Source of the DNA: Sanghuangporus weigelae
Lineage: Eukaryota; Basidiomycota; Agaricomycetes; Hymenochaetales; Hymenochaetaceae
Reading direction: 5' to 3'
NCBI GenBank assembly: GCA_033182465.1
Contig: CP137323.1
Coordinates: forward strand, 2,649,099 to 2,713,098
DNA: 64,000 nt
The position numbers were made by a program, and so were the translations under genes. Below the pieces are notes generated by a model. That model searched no databases. It was not told where the DNA came from and saw nothing but the letters and a program-made list of their open reading frames with translations. Below, one piece after another: positions 1,058 through 64,000 of the stretch (the stretch's first letter is position 1; the number at the start of each line of letters is the position of its first letter).

Positions 1058-1249
1058 TTTTGAAGTGTGCTGTTATTTCTTTTACCTACTTCACACATTT
1101 TATACATTTTATTCGCATGTAAGTTGATAAAGCTGATGGCAGCAACGGTTTACAGGCTTATACACTCTTGACGAGAAAAAGATAGACAACGAGAAGAAAC
1201 GAAGAACCGGAGGTACGCGAAAGCTACAGTATAACCGACCAACGTATTA

Positions 1250-2549
1250 TCATCGCTGCGGAGGCGGAGGAGTCATATTCATAGCCATTCCTTGCTGAGG
1301 AGCTCCATAACCAGGCGGCAGTGGAGGCATTGCCATTCCTTGTGGAGGAGCGCCGAAGCCAGGAGGCGGAGGCGGATGCATTCCCATATTCATTCCCGGG
1401 GGTGCATTGTACGAGGCAAACCCAGGAGGCGGTGTGGGCATACCAGGCATTCCCATAGGCATCCCACCTGGCATCGCTCCGAATCCAGGTAGTGGTGGCA
1501 CACCCATGCCCATTCCTGGAGAAGTCGAAGGCGCCGGCGGGGCAGCTGCGAGAGCCCCAGCGAACTGGCCCTGATAAGGACCAGGGGCACCGTAAGGGGG
1601 AGGATTGGACGCAGGGTGTCCTGACACGGCCGAAGCAGGTGTTGTCGCAGAAGGGCCGAAAGCGGCGAGAGCGTTTAATGTTGCAGGGGGAGGTCTAGCA
1701 GAGGCAGGTAAAGCATTGTTCTTACGAGCCTGTGCTGCGAGGAGACGTTCAGCAGGAGTTCCATGCCGTTCCCCCTTTCCGTCCTTTTTAAATGCGTACT
1801 GCACGGTGATGGATTTGTTCATGAGGAATTGCCCGTTCATAGCTTCGGTAGCAGCATCCGCAGATTCGAAATCGATGTACGAAACGAAGCCGTAGCCTTT
1901 CGATTTGCCAGTCGTCGGGTCTCGAGCAATCTGTATGGCACCGAGGAAGCAGCACATTCAAAAAACAAAGCTATGACGGCACACGTACCTTGGCAGTCGT
2001 TGCTAACATACCAAACGCACTGAACGTATCATACAACAATCGCTCGTCCACGTTCTCGTCCAAGTTTCCTATGAACAAATTTGCACCGACATCGAGCTGC
2101 TTCTTGTCGGATGATGCCTGAGGTAGGATAAGAAATCAGCACCGCGTCGAGAACGCAGGTTGGACAGGGACGCACCTTATTGACACGTATGGGTTTACCC
2201 CAGAGTTTTATTTGATTCATGATTTTACAGGCGTACTCAGCATCCTCTTCCGTCAAAAACTCACAAAATCCGTAACCCTGATGGGCCATTGATATCCTGT
2301 CCTTTGGTAGATGGACGTTGACTGGGATAATAAGATCAGGGATTGTCGGAATGTTAATGCGGCCGAGAGAAAGAAGACGTACCGACTGGGCCAGCCTGCA
2401 ACATGAGCTCCCAAATGATTGCATCAGTTACTCGCTCATCCAGGTTTCCCTGTATGATTTCATAAGATAAACGCATGCAATATGAGTATTAGAATGAGAC
2501 CTACGAGATATACTGTGGCTTCCTGGTTTCTGTCATCTTGTCTTGACAT
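1250..2549 (-). CDS. SF3B4: Splicing factor 3b subunit 4 (SF3B4/Hsh49), two RRMs
   Basis: Five exons, complement(join(1250..1930,1989..2117,2176..2321,2383..2449,2505..2549)), encode 355 aa. All four introns are short GT-AG. The product starts [20 protein letters not shown], the hallmark N-terminus of this U2 snRNP subunit, which binds pre-mRNA upstream of the branch site as part of SF3b. RRM1 (about residues 13-90) has the RNP2 VYLGNL and RNP1 GYGFCEF sequences. RRM2 (about 100-178) has [22 protein letters not shown] and KGYGFVSY. The [18 protein letters not shown] block that follows RRM2 in the family is present, followed by RLLAAQ and a Pro/Gly/Met-rich tail of about 150 residues with PPPGFG-type repeats. 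The gene is complete and looks functional. Confidence 0.96.
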
Positions 2550-3372
2550 GACGAACAAAGTCAAAGAAAAAGTTTACGCAATGTTATTTTCCTTCCCGGA
2601 TATCTCCGGAGAAAGAAGCGACGCCTCTCTGTCGCGCGCGCAATGAATGAATAAACAACGTTTTCGCTGGCAATTCGAGCTAGTTAAATTCATCTACGGG
2701 TTCAACCCAAGTCAGCACGCGTAGTGCAGTCATATTGAAGGCATGATTACTTCGGATCATTTCTCAGGCCAAAAAGCTCTGATTCCTCTCTTTCGGACTA
2801 GGTCTCAAACTTCAATAAGTGGTCTTGAACATGGACCGATACTATGAGTCCCATCTCGTTCAATCAAATCCCGCTCCATTGCTAGAAAACACCTTCTTAT
2901 ATATTCAAACTCAGCCCAGAATATACTGTATGACAGGATAGTCAAAGGAGAATAAGGAACGTGGTCGAAGCCCTCGAACAAATGGGGCTTCAAAAGATCG
3001 AAACGAAAGTCCACTGTAAGAGTATGTACAGTCCGAAGGTCGAAACAACAAATGGCACACATATAAAGCAAGAAAACAAGGAAGAATGCATGGATCGACT
3101 GATACGACAGTGAAGGGTGCAATGGGAAAAGAATGTGTAAATCGCAACAGATCCTATGTTCCAGGACGAAAGAAGAAATGGGAGAGAAAGAAGAAAAGAA
3201 AAGAAAGGTAATCCAAGAACATAACAATAGATACTCTACACTACTTGTACATGTACAATACTAACGCGGGTATGAAGGGAAGGGAAGACAACAATTCTGT
3301 ATGGGAGACCGAATGTGCATCGTTCGTACAGTATACAACTTCGGGGAACGGAAAGGGATATGGTGGCCACTC
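2550..3372. other. Intergenic, no gene seen
   Basis: This 0.8-kb stretch lies between the start of SF3B4 and the end of the long low-complexity gene, both on the minus strand. It should hold the SF3B4 promoter and the 3' end of the upstream transcript. Open frames here are short, lack splice-consistent partners and match nothing I recognise. Confidence 0.6.
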
Positions 3373-6300
3373 TTAGGCGGCAAGGTCCAACTCGATGCTC
3401 TTAGCTGGTACGACGCTCGTCCTCGCCCTCCGTACACGTCTTATCGTTGGGCGCTGTGTGCGCGGACCACTCCGGAGAACAATATCCGCATCAGCTTTGG
3501 TTCCAGCATCGATTTTCATGACGTCGTCGATAGCGGTAGGAGTGTCATCGACATTTTTGTCCGAGGCCGTGGGAATGGCGGCATGGCCGCTGGAATTAAG
3601 CCGAGTACGCAGAGCAGAGCTAATACCAAATTATTATCAAAGAAAATAAGTACCATCGAACAAGAATGACAACAGCACATATCAATGCACGGGGATGGAT
3701 GCTCACCCTCCGAAGAAACTCCCACCGGACATCTTCAACTTTGACCTCAGCGTCTGTGTTGCGCTCGAGCCAGAACCGGTCCTTGCGTGTCCGCGAGTAA
3801 TAACATGCACAACAGTCGGACTCTGTGAGCCATTATTATTTCCCGAAGAACCGACAGCGGCTGCACCAGCAAGGGGTCGGTTCCGTGAAGCAGCAAGAGC
3901 AGCGCGCTTCTGTCTTACGCGCGCGACTAGCGTGGCGGCTGCAACAGCGGCTTCGCCCATCGGACTCCTCGGATCCGTCAAGGTCAGCCTGTTCATCTTC
4001 CTCATCCCAGTCGTAGTAGAAGATCTTTTGGCCGATATGACGCTCACAGCACTCGCATTCCTCGAATGCCCGCCTGCTCCAAAAGCGGACATAGTCGACT
4101 TGGTCGAAGTAGCCGAAAGTGGCACACTAGTCGCAGGGAGAAGAACCGTTCCGCCCTTGAACTTTGTGACGACTCGCAATTTTGGTAGGGGCGACGGCCG
4201 TAGACCGAATCGGTGATAGTCAGCGCCTGCAGCTTGGGCACTCAGATCGGTTGCGACGCTTCCTCCACTATCTGGTGTGGGAAGCGGGAAAGTGTTTGGG
4301 TCAGGGAGCGCACGGATGGCGGCGCGAATCGCTGCGGCGGAACGCGCGGAGTGGCGCTTCTTTGACGAGCTGATGCTTCGCGTTTTACTCTTCCTCCTCT
4401 CGGTTATGCTGCCCGTTGCGCTAATCCCGGAAGCCATGCTCTTTCGTACGGTCTCCTGCCTTCTCAGTGCACCTTCGTTCGGACTCGCGTTCCTATATCC
4501 CGTACCATTCATGTTGGCATCCTCATCATCGATATCTACAAAGCCATCATCCTCCCTCGTCCGACTCTCATCAACAAGAGGCACGAAAAATCCTGCATTG
4601 TAGCTCGAGGCATGGTGCTCCGTGTTGATACTACTAGCAATCGTCAACAAACTCCCCATCTGCTCTTCCTCGCTCGCACCGGCCATGCTCTTGATGAGAT
4701 CCGCAAAGGCAGGGTCGATACTTATATGCGTTTGTGCGCCGGAGGTGGACTGGTGCAGGATGCTGAAGGAGGTGGAGGTATTATTGGTGTTGGAACTCAG
4801 GATGGAGAACGCCCCGGCTGTGCTGCTGATCGTACGGTGCTGGTGCCCGCGGGATTCATTCTCGTTCTCGTCTGGCATCTGTGCTTCGACGACGTTGGGT
4901 AGAAGTGCGTTAGTCGCTGTGGGAGTTGTGAGGTGGTCGCTCTCCGATTCCTCAGAGCCGTCTGTCTCGGAGGACTTGCGGTCTAAAGCTGGAGCAATGT
5001 TCTCCTCGTCCTGATCCTTCTTTTGCTGTTGCTGTTTCGTAGAAAACAGGATTGAAGGAACAGCTCCAATGGTCGAGCTCCGCGCACGCGAAACGGCTTT
5101 GCTGGTCTTAAACCTCAACGGCGCAACACCACCAGGAGAATCCAACGAACTCGGCGAGATGCAGAACGACGTCGCGCGTTGAGCGCGTGCGCTGCTCTTC
5201 CCCTGCTTATCAGAACAAGCGGTGATATTAAAGCTTGTCTTTACGGCCTCAGCACTCTGCGGATGCGGTACTGTCATTGGTACACGTCCACGTGCATTGA
5301 CCACCTCCATACGACGACTCGATGAGCTCCTAATCTTCAACGGCGCCACGGGCGGTTGCGCAAGAGCAGGAGCAGGAGCGAGTTCAGGCGTAGTGTAGAT
5401 AATCGTCGGCTTGTCCAGCTCGAACGTCTGATTATCTGGCGGCGCAGAACTCGATCCAGGTGTGACCCTTCCGAGGCCGCTGAATGAAGTGGGAGGAGGG
5501 AGAGCGTTTGCAGTGTGCACGTCAATTGCCGGTGGGATGGGGAAAGCATGTTTCTTCTCTCCGTTCGTCCGGGATTCAGGATTATTTGGGGCGTTAAAGG
5601 CGGAGGTGGAGGTGGAAGTAGACTGAGCACGTCGACGCGGAGGGACAGGGAACCCGAGTAACGGTACACCTGATGGAAACATCTTCACAATTCCTTTGTT
5701 CCTCACCGATACTGGGAAGGTGAACTTCGGAAGTTCGGCGACGCGGTGTTTTAGGTCTGCGATGGCCTCGCGCGCGGTGATGTGCTTCGGGTGACTCAGA
5801 GTCTGCGTTGTGTGCATCAGCATTTTACGTCGGAAGAAAAGAGAGAAGGAATGAAATTGTAATAAGTGAGCGGTACATACCACTTCGTCGTTTTTCGCTG
5901 CGGTCGTAGTGGTGATGCTCATACCGGGCAACACAGCCCTCTCAGCAGGACTCTTCCCAACGTCTAGAAGACTTGGACTAGGCGGGACTCCAGTACTGCT
6001 CGCGCTCGGGATGGGCATCTCAGCTGCTCCTACGGCACTTGGCGCGGGTATGAAGAGAGGTGCGACGGGCGGTAAGGGGAAACTCGTCAGGGAGAACGCG
6101 TCGGTGTCACTTGGTGTGAGCGCAGGTGATTGGGCTGTGGAGGAGGTGGGCGGAGGTGGAAGTTGGTTGCGAGCATGAGATGATTGAGGGAGAGGATGCG
6201 TAGGTTTGGGAGGAGGTGGAGGCGGTGGAGGCGTAGCGGAGGCTGCATTTGCTGAGTTCTTGGAAGATCCTGGGAGAGAAGTAGGCTGACGATGGGGTGA

Positions 6301-51874: not shown

Positions 51875-54800
51875 ATGACGCATACATCCCCTACTACCTT
51901 CGCAGTCTGGTCTGTCCTGTCCTTCAGCGTACGTGCATTTCGATCCATCCGTATTCTATCATTCTTCCTTTGACTGACTGATTCTGATGCACCCTTCGCA
52001 CGCCGTTGAATCTGGCGTCTGTGTCCTTTGATCTGCTCCTCCTTGCACCGAAAACTGAATTCATCCATTGTCGATCGGCGATGTACAGCTCGGCGCCTTC
52101 CTCCTAGGTCATCTTTGGCGATTTGACAAATTCAAGTGCCTAAAGTGCGTGTCTACATGCGTTGTCTAATCGCACTGGTACGAGAAATGACTTATCATCG
52201 ACGTTTCCTTTCGTAGATGGTCCAACGCTCCCTACTCGGGTGCCTTCAAGCGAATCATGACGTACACCTATCTAATAACAATACCCCTAATAATGATATA
52301 TTCCTTCGGGTTCACATTTATAAAATATAAGGAAGGCTTCATTGACGTCGGAGGCACAAGTACGTGTTCTTACTGCTCATCCTTTGTTCGTTTCTGGACC
52401 TGGTTCTGATGTGACGTTAGTCATGCCTAAACCATACACATTCTGGGGCATGGGATACCGCGATGCCATTTTCCCACTTATGATGGTCTTTTCGTTTGCG
52501 TGGTCTTTTGAAATGTGCGGTTGTCCGAATTCTGCTCTAATCGTGCCTCTGCTTACTCCATTTTGGACACAGGGTGACACATCTGGAAGGTATGTATTCA
52601 CCTATTCGCTCATCTTTCCCCCCCCTGCTAACAGACCTCCCTTTCCCGTTCCGATACTGCGTGATTTCAGAACTCTGCTTCTGGTACTTCCTCATTACTG
52701 CCGGACCAGCGCAACCAGACTGGTTCCACAGCCCGTACTTCCGAATCTGGATCTTAGGTTCCATCGCTGCAGTGGTCTATGTGCCAGCGGTAACAATCGT
52801 ATACCGGGATAATCCTCTTGGTGTACGTATGACCTCTGTATGATCAAGGACGTACCGACTAACAATAATATATAGTGCGAAGCACGGATGTTCACCTCCG
52901 GCAGTGTCGGTGATCTTGTTCTCACACTTGCATTCATTCCGATCTTGTTTCGTTTCCCTGGGTTCATCCGGAAAGTGGTGTGTACTGCATCATCGTTCAT
53001 TTAACAATTCCTTACTCACTGAATGTTTTCCTCGTTTTCCGTATAGAAAGCGGAAGGCGTCGACTCCTCAATAATTGTCCGGTTGAGAAAATTTTATGAA
53101 CTGAACGTGAGTTTTTGGCAACCTTCTAAAGTTGCATGCAAACAGCGTAATTCTTGAATAGGTGATTCGTATTGTATTTCGTTTCCTCATGCAAGTACCT
53201 TTATTGTCGCTTGGCGTGGATGGTTTGAAACCACATGATCACGAACTTAACGAGTCCCTGTAAGACTCTTGCCTTTAGATCTGTGCAGAACATTGCATAC
53301 TAAAGCCTATACCTTCCGACAGCTTCTGGACGGACTTGCTCAGTATCATCGCTGCCTTGGGATGCGTGTTTTCATCCGTTTGTACACTGCTTGTAAGTAC
53401 ACACTTTCGGTAGCTTGCTTTTCTAGTGCTCAAGAGCTGCGCAAGATATTCTTTCCGCGATCATACGAAGCAGAGTATCATGCCAAGGAGTTGTCGCACC
53501 GGCGTTCCGTGCAGTCCATGTCTTCGCGTCAGTCTCACGAGCCTCAGCCTGCATACTCACAATACGGAGATGACGATCGTCACGAGTTTGAGCCTGAATC
53601 TATCAGTAAATCAGCATCGTTCAACACGCACAAATTCTCTGGAAACGATCATTACGAAGACGGCTTTGTGAAGTTTGACCGAACGGAACGAAGAATGGGC
53701 ACAGGGCTCGTAAGGGAAAGGCTCAGTTCGAAATTAAGAGAACGCGAGCGACGTATCGCAAGAGGCACGCGGAAGATGGGAGTTGAGTTACAGCATGTCC
53801 TGACAAGGCGGCTCATGCGTCTCTCGCTCCCGAGACGAAGGCACGTAGAACCAGAGGGAAGCAGCGGCATTTCTCTGACCCCCGGGATTCTATCATTGAC
53901 TCATGGGGAGCAAAATGCGAAAGATGAGAAAGATACGGTGACACGTCGAACGACGCCAAGCGCTCGCTCCGCCGCACGGCAGAGGAGCGAGAGCAATGCG
54001 GCCGTATCCGAAGAGAGTATTGGTGCGGATTTGAAGAGAAAAGGAACCTACTTGCTGACGAACTCGCCCGTGTTACGGGCGCGCAGAATGTACGAGCAAG
54101 AAATGAGTGGAGGACCCGTTGGCGCCGTGTCTGTAGAGACCCTTGAAGCCGCCTATGACGCAGGTGCAGGTGTAGGATTCATCTCTGGCGAGGAACATCC
54201 GGCCGTTGAGAACAACGAAAGAGAGGATACGACCCGCTTCGGACACGGTCCGTCCGCAATGCAATCTTTCAGTGACAGAAGGGAGATCAGCCAAACTCAG
54301 GAAGACGGCGATGTACCGGCCTTTGCACTGGACTCCCCTCCTCCATCTTTCTCCGTACCTCCATATTCTCACGCTACAGGGATAGAGAATATAACGACAG
54401 CTCAAAGTCATATCTATGGCCCAAGGCCGATAAAGAAGTCCCTGTCGTTGAGCACGACTGGTACGGTTGCGACTCGCCGAGCTTTGCCGACGCCTCCAGC
54501 AGGCGATCCTTTGGGCGCAGCACCTGCATACTCCCCTCCGCAGGATCCATTGATTGTACCTATGCAAATTCAAGAGCAGAACATGAAGCGGAAGGAAAAC
54601 AAAAGGGCGGGAATCACCGTCAACGTCGCTACAGGCTTGCGAACCCACCCGTTCGCATCGGCGTCTGCGCCCCTTGACCTACAAGAAGCCGCATTAGCTT
54701 CTCGTCCAACGCATATGCGTGAGCAAATTGATACCCCACCCGTCACCGTTGCGCTGCAGTCAGACATGCTACAAACAGCAAGTGGGCGGCACGGATTAAA

Positions 54801-55165
54801 TTACACATCGCCTCATTCTAGGTTGACCACGGCCAACACCGCGGATCACTCTTATGGAACAGACCTAGAGAGGAATGTAGGACCATTACCTGGTGGCCGA
54901 GTACTCGGCTTGACAGCAGCGAACCTTTCACGGTTGAACTCATCGACACGGGCGTCCCAGGTAAACCCACTCGTGAGAACGTTTACCTCGCCTATCGGTG
55001 AGCATATCCTCTGTCGTTATCAATTTTGGTCGGACGTTTTGCTGACATGGAAATGGCTCTTTAATAGACTTTCTGGACCGAATACAAGAAAGCGGTGGTT
55101 CAGGTCCCGATTCCAGAGGCGCTGCAGCGAACGCAAGCCGGACACAAATTGGTTGGGCGGTCTAG
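51875..55165 (+). CDS. Seven-pass membrane protein with long cytoplasmic tail, GPCR-like
   Basis: Twelve exons, join(51875..51928,52089..52144,52217..52359,52421..52514,52573..52589,52671..52822,52876..52977,53047..53106,53162..53259,53323..53392,53446..54997,55068..55165), give 831 aa in one frame. All junctions are GT-AG. Seven hydrophobic helices lie in the first ~310 residues: AVWSVLSFSLGAFLLGHLW, MTYTYLITIPLIMIYSFGFT, AIFPLMMVFSFAWSF with CFWYFLITAG close by, WILGSIAAVVYVPAVTIV, GDLVLTLAFIPILFRF, IVFRFLMQVPLLSLG and LLSIIAALGCVFSSVCTLL. The remaining ~520 residues are hydrophilic, Ser/Arg-rich and disordered. This is the layout of a fungal seven-transmembrane receptor, although no named family signature or RGS domain is evident. 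It may signal through a G-alpha like the one at 25 kb. The 17-nt exon 5 is noteworthy. Confidence 0.82.
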
Positions 55166-55640
55166 AGGAAGTGATGGAAATGTGGATGCCGAATAAAGAC
55201 CACCCGTATTCTGCTCCTCGGCTCGCGACATAACTTATTTTTTCTTGGTTTTTTCCTGCTAGCATGGATGTGTTACTATCGCTACCTTTTACTACGCCTT
55301 TTTTTCAACACGTCGTTCCACGGTCACCGTACCACAAATGCGAGTATGTTTTCTATTTCAGTACTAATTCTGCCACTCACCCTCTTACAAGAGGCAAAAG
55401 CAAGTTTCAGTCTTTTTGAAATAATCATGAGCCTCTGCAACGTTAGGTCTCATTTGTGCTACAAGCCTGAACGAAGCTGGAAACCTTCTGCTTCCATGAT
55501 ATGATATGAGCCGCCGTGTGGACATGGTCGTAAGAAATAATATGATCAGTTTGAGATTACAAATACAATATAATTTTGGATCTCAATTCAATACACAAAT
55601 CTGAGCAAATTTCAACAAAATATTGGTAAAATTGGCAGCC
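55166..55640. other. Intergenic, no gene seen
   Basis: Downstream of the seven-pass protein gene. AT-rich, with no recognised gene. Confidence 0.55.
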
Positions 55641-55811: not shown

Positions 55812-56084
55812 TCTGACCACAACGTCTCTGCTGCCTGTCGCCGCCGTCCTCATCCACGGGATTGGTGTCCTGATTTCTGGTGGAAAACATCCTGCAGGTC
55901 CTTGTTTGGTTATAAAGGGGGGCTAGAGCTGCTAGGCTCGGATCCCTAGGCAGGAGGGTTGAAGGTGAAATTGAGTAGGGTCGTAGGGTTGGACTTCAGA
56001 GGAGACAGACCAGGCTCTGAGGCTATTGCCTGGCTGTCTGGATAATCTGGACACTTCAGCATAAGACAGTTGAGCATGTCAAAT

Positions 56085-56716
56085 GTCCCTAATTCGGGGA
56101 CACCTGTGCATGGGAAGCAGGACATGCCAAAATTCACTGAGATAGCCTCCCTCTCAGAAAAAGTGTCTCTGATTCGGGGACACCTGGTCATGGGAGGCAG
56201 GACATACTAAAATAAGCTGAGATGGCCTCTCTCTCAAGCAAAGTGTGCCCAATTCGGGACACCTGTGTATGGGACCCAGGACATGCCAAGCCAGCCACAT
56301 TGGTATGTCCTCCCTCTTGTGCAGAAAGTGTCCCCGAATCGGGAACACCTGTGCATGAGACCCAGGACATGCCAAAACACTGGCATGTACTCTCTCTCGT
56401 GCAGAAAGTGTCCCCAAATTGGAGACACCTGTGTATAGAAAGCAGGACATGCCAAAATTCACTGAGATAGCCTCCCTCTCAGAAAAAGTGTTTCTGATTC
56501 GGGGACACCTGTGTATGGAACCCAGGACATGCCAAGCCAGTCACTGGCATGTCCTCCCTCTTGTGCAGAAAGTGTCCCCAATTCGGGGACACCTGTGTAT
56601 GGGACCCAGGACATGCCAAGCTGACCACACTGGCATGTCCTTCCTCTCGTGCAGAAAGTGTCCCCAAATTGGGGACACCTGTGCATGGGACCCAGGACAT
56701 GCCAAAACACTATACA
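56085..56716. repeat. Subtelomeric minisatellite, about 80-86-bp units with internal palindromes
   Basis: About eight tandem units, each starting near GTGTCCCCAATTCGGGGACAC, an inverted repeat. Each continues CCTGTGNATGGGACCCAGG and ACATGCC. Several units then have CACTGGCATGTCC, which pairs with GGACATGCC, so each unit can form two hairpins. The end of each unit is CCTCCCTCTCNNGCAGAAA. Units differ by a few substitutions and short indels. Unit boundaries are near 56164, 56242, 56327, 56408, 56488, 56571 and 56657. No coding function is seen. Because of the internal palindromes, many spurious frames appear on both strands. Confidence 0.9.
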
Positions 56717-56731
56717 TATTCCTCCTGGGAT

Positions 56732-56780
56732 CTTGGTCAAGATCCCGGGGGGCCCCCCAGCTGGGGGGGCCCCCCACCTT
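56732..56780. repeat. G/C-run palindromes at the end of the minisatellite
   Basis: Immediately after the last minisatellite unit a short hairpin (GATCTTGGTCAAGATC) is followed by GGGGGGCCCCCCAGCTGGGGGGG and then CCCCCC. The second structure is an extended palindrome around AGCT. Together they form an unusual, strongly foldable block separating the two satellite arrays. Confidence 0.8.
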
Positions 56781-56836
56781 CCTCTTTCGGTAATATGCTT
56801 AGGTTATCTCCACCCCTTTTAGGCAACCCCCCCTAG

Positions 56837-57352
56837 GATCACGTCACGCCCCCCCAGCCCGTCACGCCCCCCCAGCCCGTCACGCCCCCCCAGTCCGTCA
56901 CACCCCCCAGACCGTCTCGCCCCCCAGTCCGTCACACCCCCCAGTCTGTCACGCCCCCCCCGGCTCACGTCACGCCCCCCCAGTCCGTCACACCCCCCAG
57001 TTCGTCACGCCCCCCCAGCCCACGTCACGCCCCCCCCAGTCCGTCACACCCCCTAGTTCGTCACGACCCCCTAGCTCACGTCACCCCCCCCCTAGGATCG
57101 CGTCACGCCCCCCCAGTCCGTCACGCCCCCCAGTCTGTCACGCCCCCCAGTCTGTCACGCCCCCCAGCCCGTCACGCCCCCCCAGTCCGTCACACCCCCC
57201 AGTCCGTCACGCCCCCCCAGTCCGTCACGCCCCCCAGTCTGTCACGCCCCCCCCCCGGCTCACGTCACGCCCCCCCAGTCCGTCACATCCCCCCAGTCCG
57301 TCACGACCCCCCAGCTCGCGTCACGCCCCCCCAGCTCACGTCACATCCCCGC
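56837..57352. repeat. C-rich subtelomeric satellite, about 18-bp unit, ~28 copies
   Basis: Tandem units of roughly GTCACGCCCCCCAGTCC, counted as about 28 copies, with variants GTCACACCCC, GTCTCGCC, and inserted CACGTCACG units. Each unit has a run of 5-9 C on the plus strand, so the minus strand has repeated G runs compatible with G-quadruplexes. The unit length varies with the C-run length. No gene or promoter is implied. Confidence 0.93.
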
Positions 57353-57360
57353 ACTCCCGA

Positions 57361-57870
57361 CAGCTATCCTCGCCATCAAGCGCAACTCCCAATTGCTGTA
57401 AGAAACTTCGCTCGCCACCGTCGCATCTCGACTCAACGACTTTCTAGATTTAATCAAGAAGACATTCGCAAAGTTTTAAATCCTGTACCTTCTAGAGTCG
57501 AGTCAGATGGGTCGCCGGGGAAGATTGCGGAAAATGACTACTTGATGAAATGTGCGTGTGCGACTTTTGTCCTCCGGCTCTATCTGACTTACTCCGTGTA
57601 GGCTGCCCGTATAACACACGTCCCCACCTATCGAAATCCTCTGCAACGTTTGATTGGCATTCTTGGTGCAATCGCGACGACACGGCACCAAGCCGCTGCA
57701 GATGTTTTGCGTGCCCTTGTTGCAAGCGGATATGCTGCAGTTACGACAGAAATTGTTCTCAGATGGATCGGATTAAGCTTACAGGAGTATGCGGCCGATC
57801 CGCGAGGTGAAGATAGCTGGAAGCGGAAAGATCAGGGTGTATATCTTCTCACTGCTGTCGCGACGCTCAG
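57361..57870 (+). pseudogene. CSE1 exportin fragment, copy 1 (scrambled)
   Basis: Two out-of-order pieces of the nuclear export receptor CSE1 (which returns importin-alpha to the cytoplasm) are joined. The first piece (57370-57670) covers ILAIKRNSQLL, then FNQEDIRKVL and PGKIAENDYLMK with a retained intron, then LQRLIGILGAIA. It is fused directly to RHQAAADVLRALVASG and on to EDSWKRKDQ and YLLTAVAT, which in the parent protein lies before it. A stop follows ILAIKRNSQLL. The DNA-level copy keeps an intron (GTGCGTG...), so it is not a processed pseudogene. Identity rests on the match to the conserved CSE1 blocks seen again in copies 2 and 3. Confidence 0.8.
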
Positions 57871-57899
57871 GTAAGATGCTCTCTTCCTGTCGACCTGCT

Positions 57900-59800
57900 G
57901 CCCTCATTCTTTAGCTTGTTTCCGTTCTTCCACTTCTCCTGCGCCATCTCGGTTCTGTCAATTGCGTCATATGCAATCAATCTCTCAATTCTTGAAACTG
58001 CGCACTCTATATTTGGACGATGGCGGTCTGAGATGCGCACTGACGAGTTATGCACAGTCATCAACTTCGTCCTGGCCCAGTTCACGTTCCTACAAGTTCT
58101 CCGTTACACTGGAGAGATGCTCCTCGACAGCCCATTGCCTCCAAACAAAGACGCGGAGACTGTCGCGCAAGCAATGCTTGTCCTCCTCAATATTTTCGAT
58201 GACCTTGTGTGCCAGAGCCTCTCGCGTTCGCCTATATGGCCTCGTAAGACAGTCACTCCGTTTTCTTAGCACGGCTATCCGCTCTGGGAATTATCGAGTA
58301 ATTATCGAGAGCCGGGAGACTATCGAGGCCTTGTTGAAGGCGGTGTCGTACCGAATGTGTTGCTGGGGACTCATGAAGTAGTGCAGTTTGAAGACGACAC
58401 TCTGGAATATGTGCGTCTCGATCTCACATTTGCTAGTGCGAGTTCGGCTGCGATTGCTGACGGTCCGACTGCAGAAGGAACGACACGACGCCAAGCCGCT
58501 GCAGATGTTCTGCTTGCCCTTGTTACAAGCGGTCATGCTGCAGTTACGACAGAAATTGTTCTCCGATGGATCGGATTAGGCGTACGGGAGTACGCGTGCG
58601 ATCTGCAACGTGAAGATAGCTGGAAGCGGAAAGACCAGAATGTATATCTTCTCACTGCTGTCGCAACGCTTGGAGCTACCGGTCAGGTAAGATGCTTTAT
58701 TCTGTCGACCTGCTGCCCTCGTTCTTTAATCATCTCGCAGCAAGGAGTGACGAGCACAAATGCTCTGGTTGATGCCGTAGACTTCTTTTCACGAAACGTG
58801 TTCGAGGACCTACAAGCCGATTCTAACGCGGTGCATCTGATCCTCCAAGTTGACGCGATTCGCTTCTTATACTGTTTTCGAAATCAGGCAGGTTTATTAT
58901 ACACCTCTTGACCTTCGAAGAATTTTATTGATGGTATCATTGCAGCTCACAAAGAAACAACTTGTTTCCGTCCTTCCACTCCTGTGCCGACTCGGTTCTT
59001 CCGATTGTGTCACGTATACGTACGCCGCAACAACTATCGAACGGATCCTCGTCATCGAGTGCAACTCCCAATTACTGTAAGAAACTTTGCTTGCCACCGC
59101 CGCATCTCGACTCAACGACTTTCTAGATTTAATCAAGAAGACATTCGCGAAGTTTTAAAAGCTGTACCTTCTAGAGTCGAATCAGGCGGTCGCCGGAGAA
59201 GATTGCGGAAAATGACTACTTGATTAAGTGTGCGTGTGCGGCTTTTGTCCTCCGGCTCCATCTGAATTACTCCATGTAGGTGTCATGCGTGTCATACTTA
59301 CTGCCCGTTCGACGCTCGTCCCCATCTACCAAAACATTCTGCAACGTTTGATTGGCGTTCTTGGAGCAATCGCGAAGAGTCCGAGCAATCCAAAAATTTA
59401 CCAATATATATTTGAAGCCGTATCTGCTCTAATAAGGTACGTGGACATGGAGATTCCGTACAAATCGTACTAGACCTGTGTGTAGGTTTACTGTCGCAAC
59501 ATCTCTGGCGTCGCTTTCGACCTTTGAGAAAAATCTTTTCGGACCGTTTACGATTATCTTAGAACAGGACATCGACCGTCAGTCATCACCACCCCTGCGA
59601 TTTTCCTGACCGCACACTGACTGCTCAGATAGAACTCACTCCTTACGTGTTCCAAGTTATCTCGCAAATGCTGGAACTACACTGTGGAGAAATTCCTGCC
59701 GAATATTGGTCACTTTTTCTATTTCTTCTTCAACCGTCAAGTTGGGCGCAGAAAGGAAGTATTCCTGGTCTCGTTCACCTCCTAAAAGCTTTCTTGCACC
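57900..59800 (+). pseudogene. CSE1 exportin fragment, copy 2 (longest)
   Basis: Order is that of the parent gene. SILETAHSIFGRWRSEMRTD and INFVLAQFTFLQVLRYTGEM, then MLLDSPLPPNKDAETVAQAM, then LVCQ, then FLSTAIRSGNYRVIIESRET, VVQFEDDTLEYVRLDLTFAS, RRQAAADVLLALVTSG, EDSWKRKDQNVYLLTAVATL, a retained GTAAG...CGCAG intron, GVTSTNALVDAVDFFSRNVF, AATTIERIL, VMRVILTARSTLVPIYQNIL, YQYIFEAVSALIR, FQVISQMLELHCGEIPAEYW and GSIPGLVHLLKAFL. The segment between LVCQ and FLSTAIRSG is missing, and there are frame changes and stops. The 3' end at about 59800 runs into the BAG-type fragment, so the copy is truncated there. Confidence 0.88.
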
Positions 59801-59829
59801 TATCAAAGCAGTGGATGCGTACGCATCCG

Positions 59830-60500
59830 AGTTTTTGAAGCTTTTCCCACGACCGCACGATCTGCGCCCAGCCTACCTCAGCCGGCCCCAGCGCCCCTCG
59901 CACAACGTGCAGTCCATCTGCGCCTGCATACTCATGCGCAAGCTCGTATGCCTACCCAGAGGGTCGTGACGCCGTCTTCCCTTTCCCTGGTCCTGCACCC
60001 ACATTACATCAGCGCGAGCTCTATCTCCGCGCCTTGGAGCAAGAACGTGAAGAAATTTTGGCTACAAAGCGTTCCAACTCCAGCCCGAGTGCTTTGGTAT
60101 CTCCTTCCGCCGAGGCGTACGTTCGCCCAGATTATGACGTCGACGAGGATGACTCCGATTCTGACGATGATGAGATGCGACCTCGATTCGATGACCGTGG
60201 GCGTCAGCTTATCTTCCGAGAGACGGTCCGACAGCGATAGGCCCGACTGGAGTACCTCCGCCGACAGGACTTTGCTAGGCGTATTGCACACCGAGGGCTA
60301 GAAGATTCCAGAGCTTCTGCATACGCCATCAAGCGTCTTCCGCCTCCACGAGCTCGTCCGATCGAACACGTCAATGCTGCTATCAAGATCCAACGCGCGT
60401 ATCGTCTGCACAGAACTGTCAAGGGCTTGAGCGACTTGACGAAGCGCGTATACGAAGCTCATGAGACGTTCTTGAACGAGCCTTGCGTGTCCGCGCGCGT
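59830..60500 (+). pseudogene. Fragment of a BAG-type co-chaperone gene fused to the CSE1 fragment
   Basis: The frame is SAGPSAPRTT..., then YAYPEGRDAVFPFPGPAPTL, HQRELYLRALEQEREEILAT, YVRPDYDVDEDDSDSDDDEM, RPRFDDRGRQLIF, a TAG stop near 60238, then LEYLRRQDFARRIAHRGLED, AIKRLPPPRARPIEHVNAAI, KIQRAYRLHRTVKGLSDL and YEAHETF. The aromatic/acidic linker and IQ-like helix KIQRAYR resemble the N-terminal half of basidiomycete BAG-domain proteins, Hsp70 nucleotide-exchange factors. The BAG domain itself is not present in the fragment. The family label is from memory of fungal proteins and is less certain than the CSE1 and SAC3 calls. The TAG (expected CAG) makes it non-functional. Confidence 0.6.
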
Positions 60501-60504
60501 GAGC

Positions 60505-61450
60505 CTGCAAGTAGAAATCGTAGTCATAAACGCTCGTCACGCCCTGGTCCACGTTCTCATCGTGACGTGCAGGATGGGTCTACGCACTGGTGAAGCACGG
60601 CGGTGCGCCTGCACCCCGAAAGATCCGGACGACGGTTATGTGGGGCGACCGAGGCGGAACCCCGATAAATGCAACGGAAGACGAAGATGACGGTGCTGCG
60701 TCAGCTTCCGAGGCAGGTCCTTCGCGCTTGTCGACGCCTGCTCCTCCTACGTCGAACGGTACTGGAAAGACATGGGAAGAGGTGTGTGCTACACGTTTCT
60801 TCTTTGATTGTCGTGCTTGCCGAATTCTGCTTTCGTGAACTTTAGCTTTTCACAGCGCGGGAAGAAGAACGTGCTCGAGCCATACGTGAAGGCAAGATGG
60901 ACGACCCGACGAAGCCGCAACGACTCGAGGGAGCTATCACTATGGTCGGAACCTGTCGAGACATGTGTCCCGAGTTCGAGCGCTACCGGCGAGAAAGGGA
61001 GAACAACCTCGATAAATCGGAATGCGTGCGTCCATGTTAACTCCTGAGTGATGTTGACTTTAAGCTGTACTTACGACTTTGCTATTTTGCTTGCGGGCGT
61101 TAGATTATCGGAACTCTCGACTACCTCTTCCACGACCTCATTCCAAGAGGTGGCTTCGCAGAGACTCAAGCATTTGTCTGGGATCGCTCTCGAGCTGCAC
61201 GCAACGATTTCACGATTCAGCAAGACAGCGGACCAATAGCTATCGAGTGTCACGAACAATGCACGCGTTTTCATATCCTTTCACTCCACCTCATATACGA
61301 CGTACCTACGTTCAATCGAGCTTTGGAGGTCCAGCAGCTTATGAATTGTGAGTCCTCGACCTTGTCACTCACCACTTTGTTGTCTGAATCTTTACGCCTG
61401 CAAAAGCTCTGCCGTCTCTGAAGGAGCTCTACGACGATCAAAGAGGAAGG
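60505..61450 (+). pseudogene. Fragment of SAC3/GANP mRNA-export factor gene
   Basis: After a junction at about 60505 the frame gives GPRSHRDVQDGSTHW, a stop, then MWGDRGGTPINATEDEDDGA and TSNGTGKTWEE followed by an intron. It continues LFTAREEERARAIREGKMDD, PTKPQRLEGAITMVGTCRDM and CPEFERYRRERENNLDKSE: the GTCxDMCPEFER motif is the signature of SAC3. A stop (TAA) follows within a few codons of VRPC. A further piece, YLFHDLIPRGGFAETQAFVW, HILSLHLIYDVPTFNRALEV and LPSLKELYDDQRGR, gives the SAC3 helical domain, again with a retained intron. The middle of the gene is missing. At about 61450 the sequence switches to CSE1. Confidence 0.88.
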
Positions 61451-63225
61451 GATGAATCATCTAACGGCTGGTGTTTCTTCTCAAATAAAGACCGGTATTT
61501 TTCAGCTCGCTGAAGCGTGTGCTCATCGGTATCCGGAGCTGCTTATTAGCTCAAATTCAGTTGAAGCTTTCGGTCGTACTCTCTGGGGTCTTCTGAGTGG
61601 CGGTGTTAAAGGCGTTGTCGTGCCGAATGTATCGCTGGGGACTCATGAAGTAGAGCAGTTTGAAGACGACTCTATCGAACGTGTGCGTCTCGATCGATCA
61701 TTTGCTTGTGCAAGTTCGGCTGCGATTGCTGACAGTCTGACCACAGAAGGAACGACACGGTGTCAAGCCGCTGCAGATGTTCCGCATGCCCTTGTTGCAA
61801 GCGGATATGCTGCAGTTACGACAATATTGTTCTCCGATGGATCAGATTGAGCTTACAGGAGTATGCATGCGATCTGTGAGTGAAGATAGTTGGAAGTGGA
61901 AAGACCAGAGTGTATATCTTCTCGCTGCTGTCGCGACGCTCAGGTAAGATGCTCTCTTCTGTCGATCTGCTGCCCTCATTCTTTGATTATCTCTCAGGAA
62001 GGAGTGACGAGCACAAATGCTCTGGTTGATACTATAGACTTCTTTTCACGAAACGTATTCGAGGACCTACGAGTCGATTCCGACACCGTGCATCCGATCG
62101 TTCAAGTCAACTCGATTCGCTTCTTATGCTGTTTTCGAAATCAGGCAGGTCGTTTAAGCACCTCTTGACCTTCGAAGAGTCTCATTGATGTCACTATTAC
62201 AGCTTACAAATGAACAGCTTGTTTCCGTCCTTCCACGCCTGTACCAACTTGGTTCGTCTAATTGCGTCACTTATGCGCATGTCGCGACAACTATCGAACG
62301 GATCCTCGTCATTAAGCGCAGCTCATAATTGCTGTAAGAAGCTTTGTTCGCCACCACCGCATCTCGACTCAACGTCATTCTAGGTTTAATGAAGAAGACG
62401 TCCGTGAAGTTTCAAATGCCGTACCTTCTAGAGTCGAGTCAGGTGGGTGGCTGGAGAAGATTGCGAAAAATGACTACTTGATGAAATGTGAGTGTGCGGC
62501 TTTTGTCCTCCGGCTCCATCTGAATTACTCCGGTTAGGTGTCATGCGTGTCATGCTCATTGCCCGTATGACGCTCGTCCCCATCTATCAAAATATTCTGC
62601 AGTGTTTGATTGGCATTCTTGGAGCAATCGCAAAGAAATCTGAGCAATCGAAAATTTGACCAATGTATATTTGAAAGCAATATCTGCTCTAATGAGGTGC
62701 GTGGACACGAAGATTGTGCAAAACTCGTATTAGACCTGTGTGTATGTAAACCATGACAACGTCTCCGGAGTCGCTTTCGAACCCTGAAAAGAATCTTTCC
62801 AGACCGTTCACGATTATCTTACAACAGGACATCGACCGTTGGTTATTAGTGCCCGTGCGTTGTTCCTGACCATATACTGACTGCTCAGATAGAATTCACT
62901 TCTGGCGTGTCCCAAATTGCCTCGTAAATGCTAGAACTACATCACGGAGAAATTCCTGCCAATTACCGATCACTTTTACCATTTCTTCTTCAACCATCAA
63001 GCTGGGTGCAGAAAGGAAGTATTCCTGGTCTCATTTGGATCTTAAAAGCTTTCCTGCGTACAGATGCTGCAATATTAGTAAGCATGGGACAATTCACAAG
63101 GATTTTAGCTGTTGTGCAGCAGAAACTGTACTCGTCGAAAATGAATGATACTTGGGGCCTTGAGCTGCTTGAAGTGATAGTTTCATATATTCTAACGTTG
63201 CATTTGACCAGTACATGAAGAGCAT
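61450..63225 (+). pseudogene. CSE1 exportin fragment, copy 3
   Basis: Starts IKTGIFQLAEACAHRYPELL (earlier in the parent than copy 2's FLSTAIRSG), SSNSVEAFGRTLWGLLSGGV, VVVPNVSLGTHEVEQFEDDS, then the same blocks as copy 2: AAADVPHALVASGYAAV, GVTSTNALVDTIDFFSRNVF, then HLIVQVNSIRFLCCFRNQ-type sequence, KIAKNDYLMK, VMRVMLIARMTLVPIYQNIL, MLELHHGEIPANYRSLLPFL, GSIPGLIWILKAFL, then VVQQKLYSSKMNDTWGLELL. It continues past the end of copy 2 towards the CSE1 C-terminus. Frameshifts and stops occur throughout. Copies 2 and 3 share nucleotide similarity across introns, so both came from DNA-level duplications. The SAC3-proximal boundary is at about 61450. Confidence 0.85.
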
Positions 63226-63852
63226 TGTAACTATGCGGCTATAGACTACTTGCATAGACAACTATGTATATCTATTTATTCTTTACGATGGCTATAGATG
63301 TGAAAGGACTGACACCGGATTTCCTTATCCGTGCAATAGAAGAGGTGCAGCCTCAGTAAGTATTGTACTGCAGTGGATAAATTGGACACTCGGTAGGGAT
63401 ACTATGCAGAAACCAAGATACAATATGTGCAATGTATATTACTGTAATAACAATATGAGGTCAGATCTAAATATCACAATAGTGATACCACTCTGTCAGG
63501 CTTAGGGTTAGGCGGTGAAGCAAATATCCCAATAGCAAGCTAAAAGACTAATCAGCAATTGGTGAGTGGGGGAACACACACCTCCAATTTCGCCTTTTTA
63601 TAAGGCTCGTCAGGCTGTACTTAGTCAGTCATGTTAGTCAGTCCGTTCCGTGTCGGAGTCGGGGTTAGTCAGTCAGTTGTCAAAAATTATTACTCACCGA
63701 TCTTTCTGATTGGTTGGAGTATCACGTGCTGTCATGTGAACGGGCTGAAACGTAATATCGTCAGTGTAAACACTTAGTAAGGCCACGTACCTTTTTCCGA
63801 TCACGGGTTTGTGATCGGATCTTGATCCTATCATGCCGGTGCAGACCCGAGT
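63226..63852. other. Subtelomeric spacer with a short exon-like segment
   Basis: Mostly non-coding. At 63288-63355 ATG starts MAIDVKGLTPDFLIRAIEEV, ending QPQ directly before a GTAAG donor, which looks like the first exon of an unidentified gene fragment. An isolated TTAGGGTTAGGC unit occurs near 63503-63514. Short AGTCAGT repeats occur at 63620-63680. Confidence 0.5.
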
Positions 63853-64000
63853 GATGGGTTAGGCTTAGGGTTAGGGTTAGGCTTTAGGGTTAGGCTTAGG
63901 GTTAGGCTTAGGGTTAGGCTTAGGGTTAGGCTTAGGGTTAGGCTTTAGGGTTAGGCTTAGGGTTAGGCTTAGGGTTAGGGTTAGGCTTAGGGTTAGGCTT
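63853..64000 (+). repeat. Telomere-like array, alternating TTAGGG and TTAGGC
   Basis: The last ~150 nt are a tandem array of TTAGGG with TTAGGC variants, most often as the 12-mer TTAGGGTTAGGC, with occasional TTTAGGG. The G-rich strand is oriented 5'-3' towards the right edge, the polarity expected for a true right-hand chromosome end. TTAGGG is the standard repeat of most filamentous fungi, so this is either a terminal telomere with variants or the variant-rich proximal telomere zone. The array continues to the window edge, so its full length is unknown. Confidence 0.93.

Follow-up and report, generated by a model that had tools for sequence, protein, structure and literature searches.

How do scrambled, intron-bearing pieces of an essential gene come to fill the DNA beside a telomere? 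The window, meaning the whole 64,000-nucleotide stretch analysed here, ends in such an array, which an initial annotation had read as three copies of the exportin gene CSE1, one of them internally out of order. Protein-family matches bear out the resemblance to CSE1 (Pfam Cse1, E=9.6e-26; CAS_CSE1, with E as low as 3.9e-18), which disposes of the case that no such relationship exists, and the internal disorder is confirmed. The copy number is not: nucleotides 57366-63378 combine seven CSE1 segments with fragments of SAC3 and of an IQ-motif-like gene in one mosaic, whose parts share a single orientation (Table 1). The feature is also larger than described, as CSE1 similarity reaches 63378 instead of 63225 and the leader begins at 56710.

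Composition of the mosaic and its coding status

By blastn comparison and a predicted exon model, C12:1609410-1612946 is an intact CSE1 parent gene, the one identified here. It lies 38 kb from the C12 end and encodes a protein of 1006 aa, residues 6-965 of which match PDB chains 1wa5_C and 1z3h_A ('Importin alpha re-exporter', E ~2.5e-161). Alignment of the window to this locus by blastn mapped the break-points of the seven segments, which are 80-94% identical to the parent, scrambled in order and still in possession of their introns. As had been proposed, the break-points join non-adjacent parts of the parent, for example 1822|508. A single intact gene, once correctly spliced, is excluded by the scrambled order, by frameshifts and by the intact gene on C12. 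A processed pseudogene or retrotransposed mRNA was rejected because the alignments pass through the parent introns. Between the CSE1 segments, the open reading frame at 60241-60690 gives a weak IQ-motif match (E=0.011, under the Pfam cut-off). The SAC3 fragment has relatives at C11:577k and C9:1.72M and is 80% identical to the former over its first 80 bp and 90-92% beyond.

Table 1. Features of the window from the attachment site to the telomere (parent, CSE1 gene on C12).
Feature	Position	Strand	Basis
80-bp/330-bp satellite, attachment site of the unit, broken at 56710	56084..56711	.	tandem repeat finder
Fixed inner edge CTATACATATTCC (commonest form CTATATATATTCC) and leader with palindrome-like GGGATCTTGGTCAAGATCCC	56710..56841	+	15 genomic copies
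C-rich minisatellite, unit ~17 bp (CGTCACGCCCCCCCAGTC)	56842..57350	.	tandem repeat finder
CSE1 fragment, parent 1855-2201, 80%	57366..57680	+	blastn to C12 parent
CSE1 fragment, parent 1287-1535	57677..57913	+	blastn to C12 parent
CSE1 fragment, parent 1766-1822	57913..57969	+	blastn to C12 parent
CSE1 fragment, parent 508-771, after junction 1822|508	57968..58225	+	comparison with C12 parent
CSE1 fragment, parent 1033-2620, introns retained	58228..59797	+	blastn to C12 parent
Fragment 90% identical to C10:698k	59859..60473	+	sequence comparison
SAC3 fragment, two internal deletions relative to C11:577k	60582..61466	+	Pfam SAC3_GANP E=1.9e-24
CSE1 fragment, parent 879-1019, at SAC3|CSE1 junction	61464..61604	+	comparison with C12 parent
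CSE1 fragment, parent 1133-2962, terminates within intron 9	61598..63378	+	blastn to C12 parent
Telomere-adjacent satellite stub, longer at other ends	63379..63498	+	comparison of ends
Interstitial telomere stub GGCTTAGGGTTAGGC	63499..63513	+	
Solitary terminal-repeat copy of Penelope-like element	63505..63856	-	97-98% to copies at C1, C5, C9, C12
Hammerhead-ribozyme-like motif (CTGACGA-GCC..GGC-GAAA)	63538..63631	-	regular expression only
Telomere, TTAGGG/TTAGGC alternating	63859..63998	+	

CSE1 fragments are present at 14 of 26 contig ends and point toward the telomere in every listed match; in the stretches read, 119/119 segments share one orientation. The same stretches contain the window's junctions elsewhere, as the initial annotation had anticipated: 1822|508 in 19 copies at 12 ends, and the junction of SAC3 with CSE1 879 in 11 copies at 10 ends. 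Sequence overlaps at 12 distinct junctions (overlap of at least 0) average 2.5 nt against a random expectation of 0.68, a figure possibly inflated because alignment ends tolerate mismatches. Three of the 15 distinct junctions have gaps of 2-6 nt and were excluded, among them 771|1027, which is blurred in one block type; scoring them as 0 brings the mean down to 2.0.

CSE1 and SAC3 are nuclear-transport factors, and their co-occurrence in the mosaics would suit a selected protein family, for instance a meiotic driver derived from a truncated nuclear-transport protein. We find this barely credible. Fragment-private substitutions fall on codon positions 1, 2 and 3 in the numbers 125, 145 and 125 (p=0.61; 32 segments drawn from 10 end stretches, with near-identical duplicates elsewhere set aside), so that selection is not keeping the pieces as protein, and the same 32 segments contain 96 frameshifting exonic gaps in total. 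Fragment-private changes affect 84/2088 intron positions (4.0%), above the exons (2.8-3.1%). Parent-private changes are fewer in introns (3/335) than at third positions (27/695), a pattern not expected if introns were simply evolving neutrally.

Chromosome-end leaders share one inner edge

Upstream of the mosaic, the inner edge of the leader (CTATATATATTCC) starts at window position 56710 and the C-rich minisatellite comes next. Fifteen leader copies occur in the genome with 0-1 mismatch over the 25 bases searched, all of them outward-pointing and no more than 21 kb from a contig end. A whole-genome pattern scan found no internal copy, the 15 copies being distributed over 13 of 26 ends. Leaders are 100-140 bp long and, in the copies inspected, are followed by a minisatellite of the window-type or a variant unit. 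The edge aligns at the identical nucleotide in 15/15 copies and is joined to 15 different breakpoints; only one of 105 flank pairs is similar, both members being telomere-adjacent satellite. The top-strand base preceding TATATA is C in all 15 copies and the next base is C in 11 (base frequencies were taken as 0.25 in the flank tests). Thirteen copies read outward to a telomere or to the next unit; of the other two, the C13R read ends within the minisatellite and the read at C5L covers part of the outer side, which has other repeats.

The interrupted DNA is recognizable at several ends. The sister satellite repeat reads on as ..AAAACACT|GGCATG where the window instead has ..AAAACAC|TATACATATTCC, and no copy of the 80-bp satellite was found on the outer side of the window unit. 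The C7L unit interrupts a broken reverse transcriptase (RT) gene (97%) and the C6L unit an older CSE1 fragment (91%). Where the interrupted sequence is clearly identified, in three cases, it has 1-6 nt in common with the leader edge. The distal remainder of the interrupted sequence was not found on the outer side of the units in the window and at C7L; this comparison does not apply to C6L and the satellite-flanked copies, where the cargo contains the same sequences. Because the same edge nucleotide meets 15 breakpoints, always facing outward and in 13 copies reading on to a telomere or another unit, the units occupy chromosome ends whose original tips are gone.

Helitrons insert at an A/T site and carry a 3' CTRR after a hairpin. 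The terminus found here is ..ATATATAG (..ATATAG), not CTRR, the flank base is mostly C, not A or T, and no second terminus bordered by host DNA was evident, 13 of the 15 copies running into a telomere or another unit. All copies lie near contig ends and in one orientation. Capture of gene fragments by a Helitron or another rolling-circle transposon, one of the two origins put forward in the initial annotation, would explain several intron-bearing gene pieces in one orientation and a hairpin-like sequence close to one terminus, and Helitron gene capture is reported in Pleurotus (PMC4289320). Since termini and flanks misfit, we rejected this highly improbable origin.

Spread of the units and the source of the copying

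All unit comparisons draw on one assembly. In long alignments, a unit of 7534-7820 bp recurs at six ends (C2R, C3L, C4R, C6L, C7L, C11L) with 99.06-99.93% identity, its outer ends lying at differing satellite positions with the telomere directly after. Leader and SAC3/CSE1 cargo are 99+% identical there and hence spread jointly. At other ends, the leaders resemble one another more than the cargo does, indicating that cargo can change separately: one leader type differs by 0-1 base in 139 at 8/10 copies, despite cargo of ~90% identity or a different gene. The inner C1L unit has cargo only ~90% like that of the six-end unit behind a leader with one base different, and the outer C1L unit carries another gene behind a near-identical leader. 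One cargo open reading frame, with two matches genome-wide, includes an OrsD domain in its longer (C5L) copy. The window-type block displays the reverse pattern, with 99+% identical cargo and gaps of up to 18 bases in leader and minisatellite (84-91%, minisatellite included), which points to exchange of cargo and argues against an RNA-based model. In some units, leader and cargo have had different histories. Units are also layered; at C11L a SAC3/CSE1 unit is stacked outside a window-type block, and at C7L an older layer contains a telomere run ~2.1 kb inward of the unit's edge.

Such layers, the 99+% identical blocks at different ends, the telomere-ward orientation preserved in the listed matches, the subtelomeric position of the parent CSE1 gene itself and the greater likeness of cargo than of leader plus minisatellite in the window-type block are what ordinary subtelomeric exchange would leave, if break-induced replication and gene conversion, as for yeast Y', had spread a mosaic formed once. 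Break-induced replication had already been suggested for this locus; this or other exchange among ends explains copying and telomere-ward orientation and probably acts, but does not explain the same leader nucleotide at 15 unrelated breakpoints. Exchange requires shared flank or telomere sequence at the inner border, yet homology between ends begins at the leader edge or within 7 bases of it, the flanks are unrelated and the seven SAC3/CSE1 units read have no telomere run of at least two units there. We regard spread by exchange as rather unlikely; it is weak as a sole mechanism, and as the only cause it was rejected on the identical inner edge at unrelated flanks.

We favor, at a probability of about 0.43, a reading in which a chromosome-end leader, attached terminally and templated by RNA, carries the CSE1/SAC3/IQ-like mosaic behind it as non-coding cargo. 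The unit consists of the fixed inner edge, leader, C-rich minisatellite, cargo that varies and an outer end that also varies and is capped by telomere. An exposed 3' end of the host strand may form a few base pairs with the 3' end (..GGAAUAUAUAUAG) of an RNA running inward from the telomere side; a reverse transcriptase would then copy outward, halting at variable points, and telomerase would complete the end. The subtelomeric CSE1 gene, SAC3 and IQ-like loci were probably the first sources of cargo, which may later have been rearranged through microhomology jumps and through exchange among chromosome ends within or close to the minisatellite. The retained introns are compatible with an RNA step, as a telomere-inward RNA is antisense to CSE1 and hence unspliced. 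The initial annotation's intron-retaining duplication is supported, though not its inference that retained introns exclude reverse transcription. Against RNA templating, the CSE1, SAC3, IQ-like and OrsD pieces all lie sense toward the telomere, so that capture of mRNA would yield the wrong strand.

The same sense orientation of intron-bearing cargo agrees with end capture by DNA alone, in which tips break repeatedly at the TATATA/palindrome leader edge and a telomere-bearing fragment or replication copy is joined through microhomology to broken ends elsewhere. The short microhomologies at the joins, the palindrome-like leader, the single orientation and the location at chromosome ends fit as well. 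End joining should nibble the edge, however, whereas the same base is found in 15/15 copies, and joining relocates a fragment and does not copy it, whereas a near-identical block occupies six ends. We consider DNA-only capture rather unlikely.

For RNA-templated attachment, a candidate enzyme acting in trans would be the intact Penelope-like RT encoded at other chromosome ends, where eight intact open reading frames of 1173 aa each are present. All 10 RT matches in the genome lie close to contig ends and have their 3' end facing inward. None is inside a leader unit, the C7L match being the flank that carries the attached unit. The RT contains PKIHK, LRPIV and YIDD, which we take, by eye, to be Penelope-type motifs; a Pfam search returned no family at E<=0.1 and a PDB search no relative at E<=10. 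A telomere stub marks the join of the RT element or its terminal repeat in the window, at C1R and at C5L. Two observations argue against a link between this RT and the unit: no sequence common to the RT element and the unit edge was found, and the terminal repeat in the window joins a telomere stub, not non-telomeric DNA. A hammerhead regular expression gave eight matches, all in the Penelope-like terminal repeat, in the stretches scanned and none in the leader stretches, where a looser ribozyme could escape it. Rfam detected no hammerhead in window 56000-64000 or L086, and the fold of the minus strand at 63536-63634 (z = -1.79, 8/200 shuffles equally good) is not a clear hammerhead. The Penelope-like copies at C1, C5, C9 and C12 are a family separate from the CSE1 unit. 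A fuller version of the RNA-templated reading is tentative and, taken whole, somewhat doubtful: a borrowed Penelope-like RT may copy a non-coding, retroelement-like unit of shredded host genes onto broken non-telomeric ends, forming a rescue cap that works alongside telomerase and is recent on at least six ends.

Repair of lost tips and the build-up of subtelomeric gene debris are often inferred from yeast recombination. Here, layers, exact attachment points and a candidate enzyme are readable in one genome, which makes end-capping of the retroelement type directly testable. The genome also illustrates how parts of an essential gene can accumulate at chromosome ends while serving no purpose there.

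Comparison with known chromosome-end elements

A literature search yielded no report of this unit by title or abstract start among the matches listed. According to PMC6431247, endonuclease-deficient Penelope-like elements and Terminons attach to chromosome ends with the RNA 3' end inward, have outer ends cut by telomeric repeats, often trap host genes between copies and carry a hammerhead motif. The RT copies at C1R and C5L and window 63505-63856 share this location, being telomeric with the 3' end inward and telomere repeats at the join, and have a hammerhead-like core by pattern only. The CSE1 unit does not belong among Penelope-like elements, as it encodes no RT and has no hammerhead in a terminal repeat in the stretches read. 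Relative to Terminons, it is alike in end attachment, outer ends that stop at telomeric repeats, trapped host genes and, presumably, an inward RNA 3' end; it differs in the lack of RT in the copies read, in joining non-telomeric DNA and in a predicted AU-rich RNA tail instead of telomere-complementary repeats. The Ustilago elements UTASa and UTASb are subtelomeric with a telomere-linked RecQ helicase, and UTASb can carry an OrsD domain (PMC10532341). The unit resembles them as a subtelomeric repeat family with an OrsD-domain open reading frame as one cargo (C5L copy) and differs in the host gene debris of most units read.

Yeast Y' elements form near-identical telomere-adjacent blocks on many ends and spread by recombination at flanking telomere tracts. 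The unit likewise forms near-identical blocks beside telomeres at many ends, but the inner borders of its seven SAC3/CSE1 units have unrelated flanks without a telomere run. Drosophila HeT-A, TART and TAHRE attach terminally to broken ends in one orientation and are truncated at their outer ends; telomeric retrotransposons of the HeT-A kind use an RNA intermediate that is reverse transcribed onto the end. Unlike in Drosophila, short-repeat telomeres are also present in this genome, and the units read through to the telomere contain no gag or RT; in broken-end attachment, single orientation and truncated outer ends, the unit is like these elements.

CSE1 fragments at contig ends

The genome comprises 33.87 Mb in 13 contigs, with the window at the right end of C6. 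Its gene content suggests a fungus, probably a basidiomycete. Family searches returned a single gene-like full CSE1 (the parent), located on C12, 38.3 kb from the contig end (Table). In the predicted exon model, 11 exons encode 1006 aa and are separated by 10 introns, each 48-58 bp long (one GC-AG); the protein contains CSE1 domains and matches two PDB chains of importin-alpha re-exporter. Genome-wide, 83 matches to PF08506 and 35 to PF03378 were found. Inspection of both lists places all of them <=45 kb from a contig end and directed to that end. They occupy 14 of 26 left (L) and right (R) contig ends: C1L, C2R, C3L, C4R, C5L, C6L, C6R, C7L, C9R, C10L, C10R, C11L, C11R and C12R.

Pfam assigns the window ORFs to Cse1, CAS_CSE1 and SAC3_GANP; an IQ-motif match is weak and falls below cut-off. 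Comparison with the parent identifies seven CSE1 segments. Two other pieces lie between them, one from an IQ-like gene, 90% identical to C10:698k, and one from SAC3, whose best relatives are at C11:577k and C9:1.72M. The initial annotation, which described three duplicated CSE1 copies, one of them internally out of order, was right about the kind of structure and captured it incompletely. In the end stretches examined, the parent's own stretch excluded, 119/119 CSE1/SAC3/IQ-matching segments have one orientation. Junctions recur in these end stretches (parent positions, slash marking the join): CSE1 1822/508 occurs 19 times, spread over 12 ends, SAC3 1375/CSE1 879 and CSE1 771/1027 occur 11 times each, and CSE1 1019/1133 occurs 10 times. 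At C11R the telomere begins <=2 bases from CSE1 position 1752, a join that looks like a healed break. Longer unscrambled pieces on C1 and C5 may represent older layers of the original duplication.

Fragment-private substitutions at codon positions 1, 2 and 3 amount to 125 of 4494, 145 of 4620 and 125 of 4238 (p=0.61), and those in introns to 84 of 2088, somewhat above exons. The three codon positions are hit equally, and the CSE1 pieces show no function at the protein level. Differences separating all fragments from the parent number 8, 5 and 27 at the three codon positions (p=2e-5), a pattern of parent-private changes expected where a gene has been maintained; in introns they number 3 of 335, below our expectation. 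Transitions are about 1.8 times as frequent at CpG as at other C/G and therefore give no sign of strong repeat-induced mutation.

Positions of the parent gene, end-associated features and side observations
Feature	Contig	Position	Remark
Parent CSE1	C12	1609410-1612946	
Copia-type RNase H-like frame	C12	1608458-1609400	directly upstream of intact CSE1; read by eye
Unscrambled CSE1 piece	C1	10900-13700	parent 1058-3465
Unscrambled CSE1 piece	C5	25500-27000	parent 2173-3500
SAC3-like sequence away from chromosome ends	C11, C9, C5, C7	577k, 1.72M, 2.65M, 1.78M	several apparently partial internal copies
Open frame	window	53251-55233	660 codons; no Pfam match at E<=1
80-bp satellite adjoining the unit	window	56084-56711	palindrome-like words such as GTGTCCCC..GGGGACAC
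Inner edge of the unit	window	56710	
Telomere	window	63859-63998	12-base alternation TTAGGG-TTAGGC, likewise at the ends of 14 stretches
Intact RT elements at C1R	C1	4482000-4491666	99-100% alike, together with those at C5L, C9L and C12L

Inner edge, leader and cargo of the terminal unit

The fragments lie in a unit that points outward and consists of a fixed inner edge, a leader, a C-rich minisatellite, variable cargo and a telomere cap. Blocks at six other ends start at the identical base with identical words, against unrelated DNA inward. A genome pattern scan allowing <=3 mismatches found 15 leader copies with 0-1 mismatch, seven at right ends and eight at left ends, and no internal copy. 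The edge reads C/TATATATATTCC in 14 copies and is one base off in the window copy. Position -1 is C in 15/15 and is therefore probably part of the unit; position -2 is C in 11/15 (p=1e-4) and -4 is A in 10/15 (p=8e-4). Two leader types, ~73% alike, are present. Eight leaders of the type of ten differ by <=1 base in 139, C3L by 5-6 and C5L by 3-6, while the type of five shows 0-2 mismatches and gaps of <=18 bases.

The cargo following leader and minisatellite consists of SAC3 plus CSE1 arrays, of CSE1, IQ, SAC3 and CSE1 (window, C9R and inner C11L), of CSE1 only (C10R), or of an ORF that carries an OrsD domain in its longer copy (C5L, E=6e-14) and is telomere-truncated at outer C1L. In the part of C5L read, outside 5.3-14.5 kb, other repeats, including a gag-like frame seen by eye, follow the OrsD ORF. 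Leader and cargo are both 99+% alike at six ends, so the whole had spread together. At inner C1L the leader differs by one base and the CSE1 cargo is only ~90% alike, at outer C1L the same leader precedes another cargo, and in the window-type block the cargo is 99+% alike and the minisatellites differ. Of the unit's parts the leader is therefore the one that stays constant, and cargo also undergoes exchange, with the minisatellite or its vicinity as the probable site.

Attachment to chromosome ends

The unit at C7L is joined within an RT gene that belongs to a different element (97%) and whose relative continues ..CACTATAT/CAAG, the one at C6L within an older CSE1 fragment (91%; ..AAGCC/AGTC) and the window unit within its own 80-bp satellite (..CACT/GGCA). 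These targets share 6, 1 and 2 letters with the edge, respectively, counting C as the unit's first base. Outer C11L and outer C1L units are joined within telomere-adjacent satellite. The lost distal part of the target was not found on the outer side at C7L and in the window, where this can be judged; elsewhere the cargo contains the same sequences as the interrupted target. Six SAC3/CSE1 units of 7534-7820 bp are 99.06-99.93% identical. For a seventh relative at C12R (5217 bp), identity is ~97-98% over the inner 4.2 kb and drops to 93-94% further out. In all seven the telomere follows immediately, and the satellite position at which the unit stops differs from one to the next.

We propose that units would be attached terminally, by RNA priming, onto chromosome ends, since such attachment predicts one orientation, an end-only location, outer ends that vary and an edge that stays exact although the breakpoints are unrelated. 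The main rival is capture of DNA ends at a fragile edge. Recombination between chromosome ends surely acts as well, but alone does not yield a fixed edge.

Telomeres and a candidate engine

Telomere arrays are present at contig ends among the matches listed, and C13R, where the contig ends within the minisatellite, terminates without one. At the 14 ends examined, the terminal 125 bases contain 18-19 neighbour pairs, of which 15-19 alternate. A telomerase template covering two different hexamers would be unusual, and a literature search for the joined 12-letter repeat gave, among the matches listed, no title on telomeres.

At C1R, 4.4-kb elements form an array; their ORF, 1173 aa long, is oriented toward the centromere. 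This RT element forms a family separate from the CSE1 unit. Of the eight intact RT-like ORFs found, five lie at C1R, while C5L, C9L and C12L have one each; partial ones are at C1R and C7L; from the likeness of the intact elements (Table), the family was probably active recently. The ORF has no match in Pfam or PDB, and its motifs, read by eye, are what we take to be Penelope-type. In the window, the 350 bp adjoining the telomere are the terminal repeat of this element, joined to a telomere stub and containing a hammerhead-like core by pattern only. We infer that this putative Penelope-like enzyme may drive attachment of the CSE1 unit.

The literature searched, with most subscription journals outside its coverage, yielded no report of a unit of this kind. 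Endonuclease-deficient Penelope-like elements and Terminons, in the description of PMC6431247, resemble the RT element found here. We rate the CSE1 unit as belonging with telomere-attached elements, as a variant of them.
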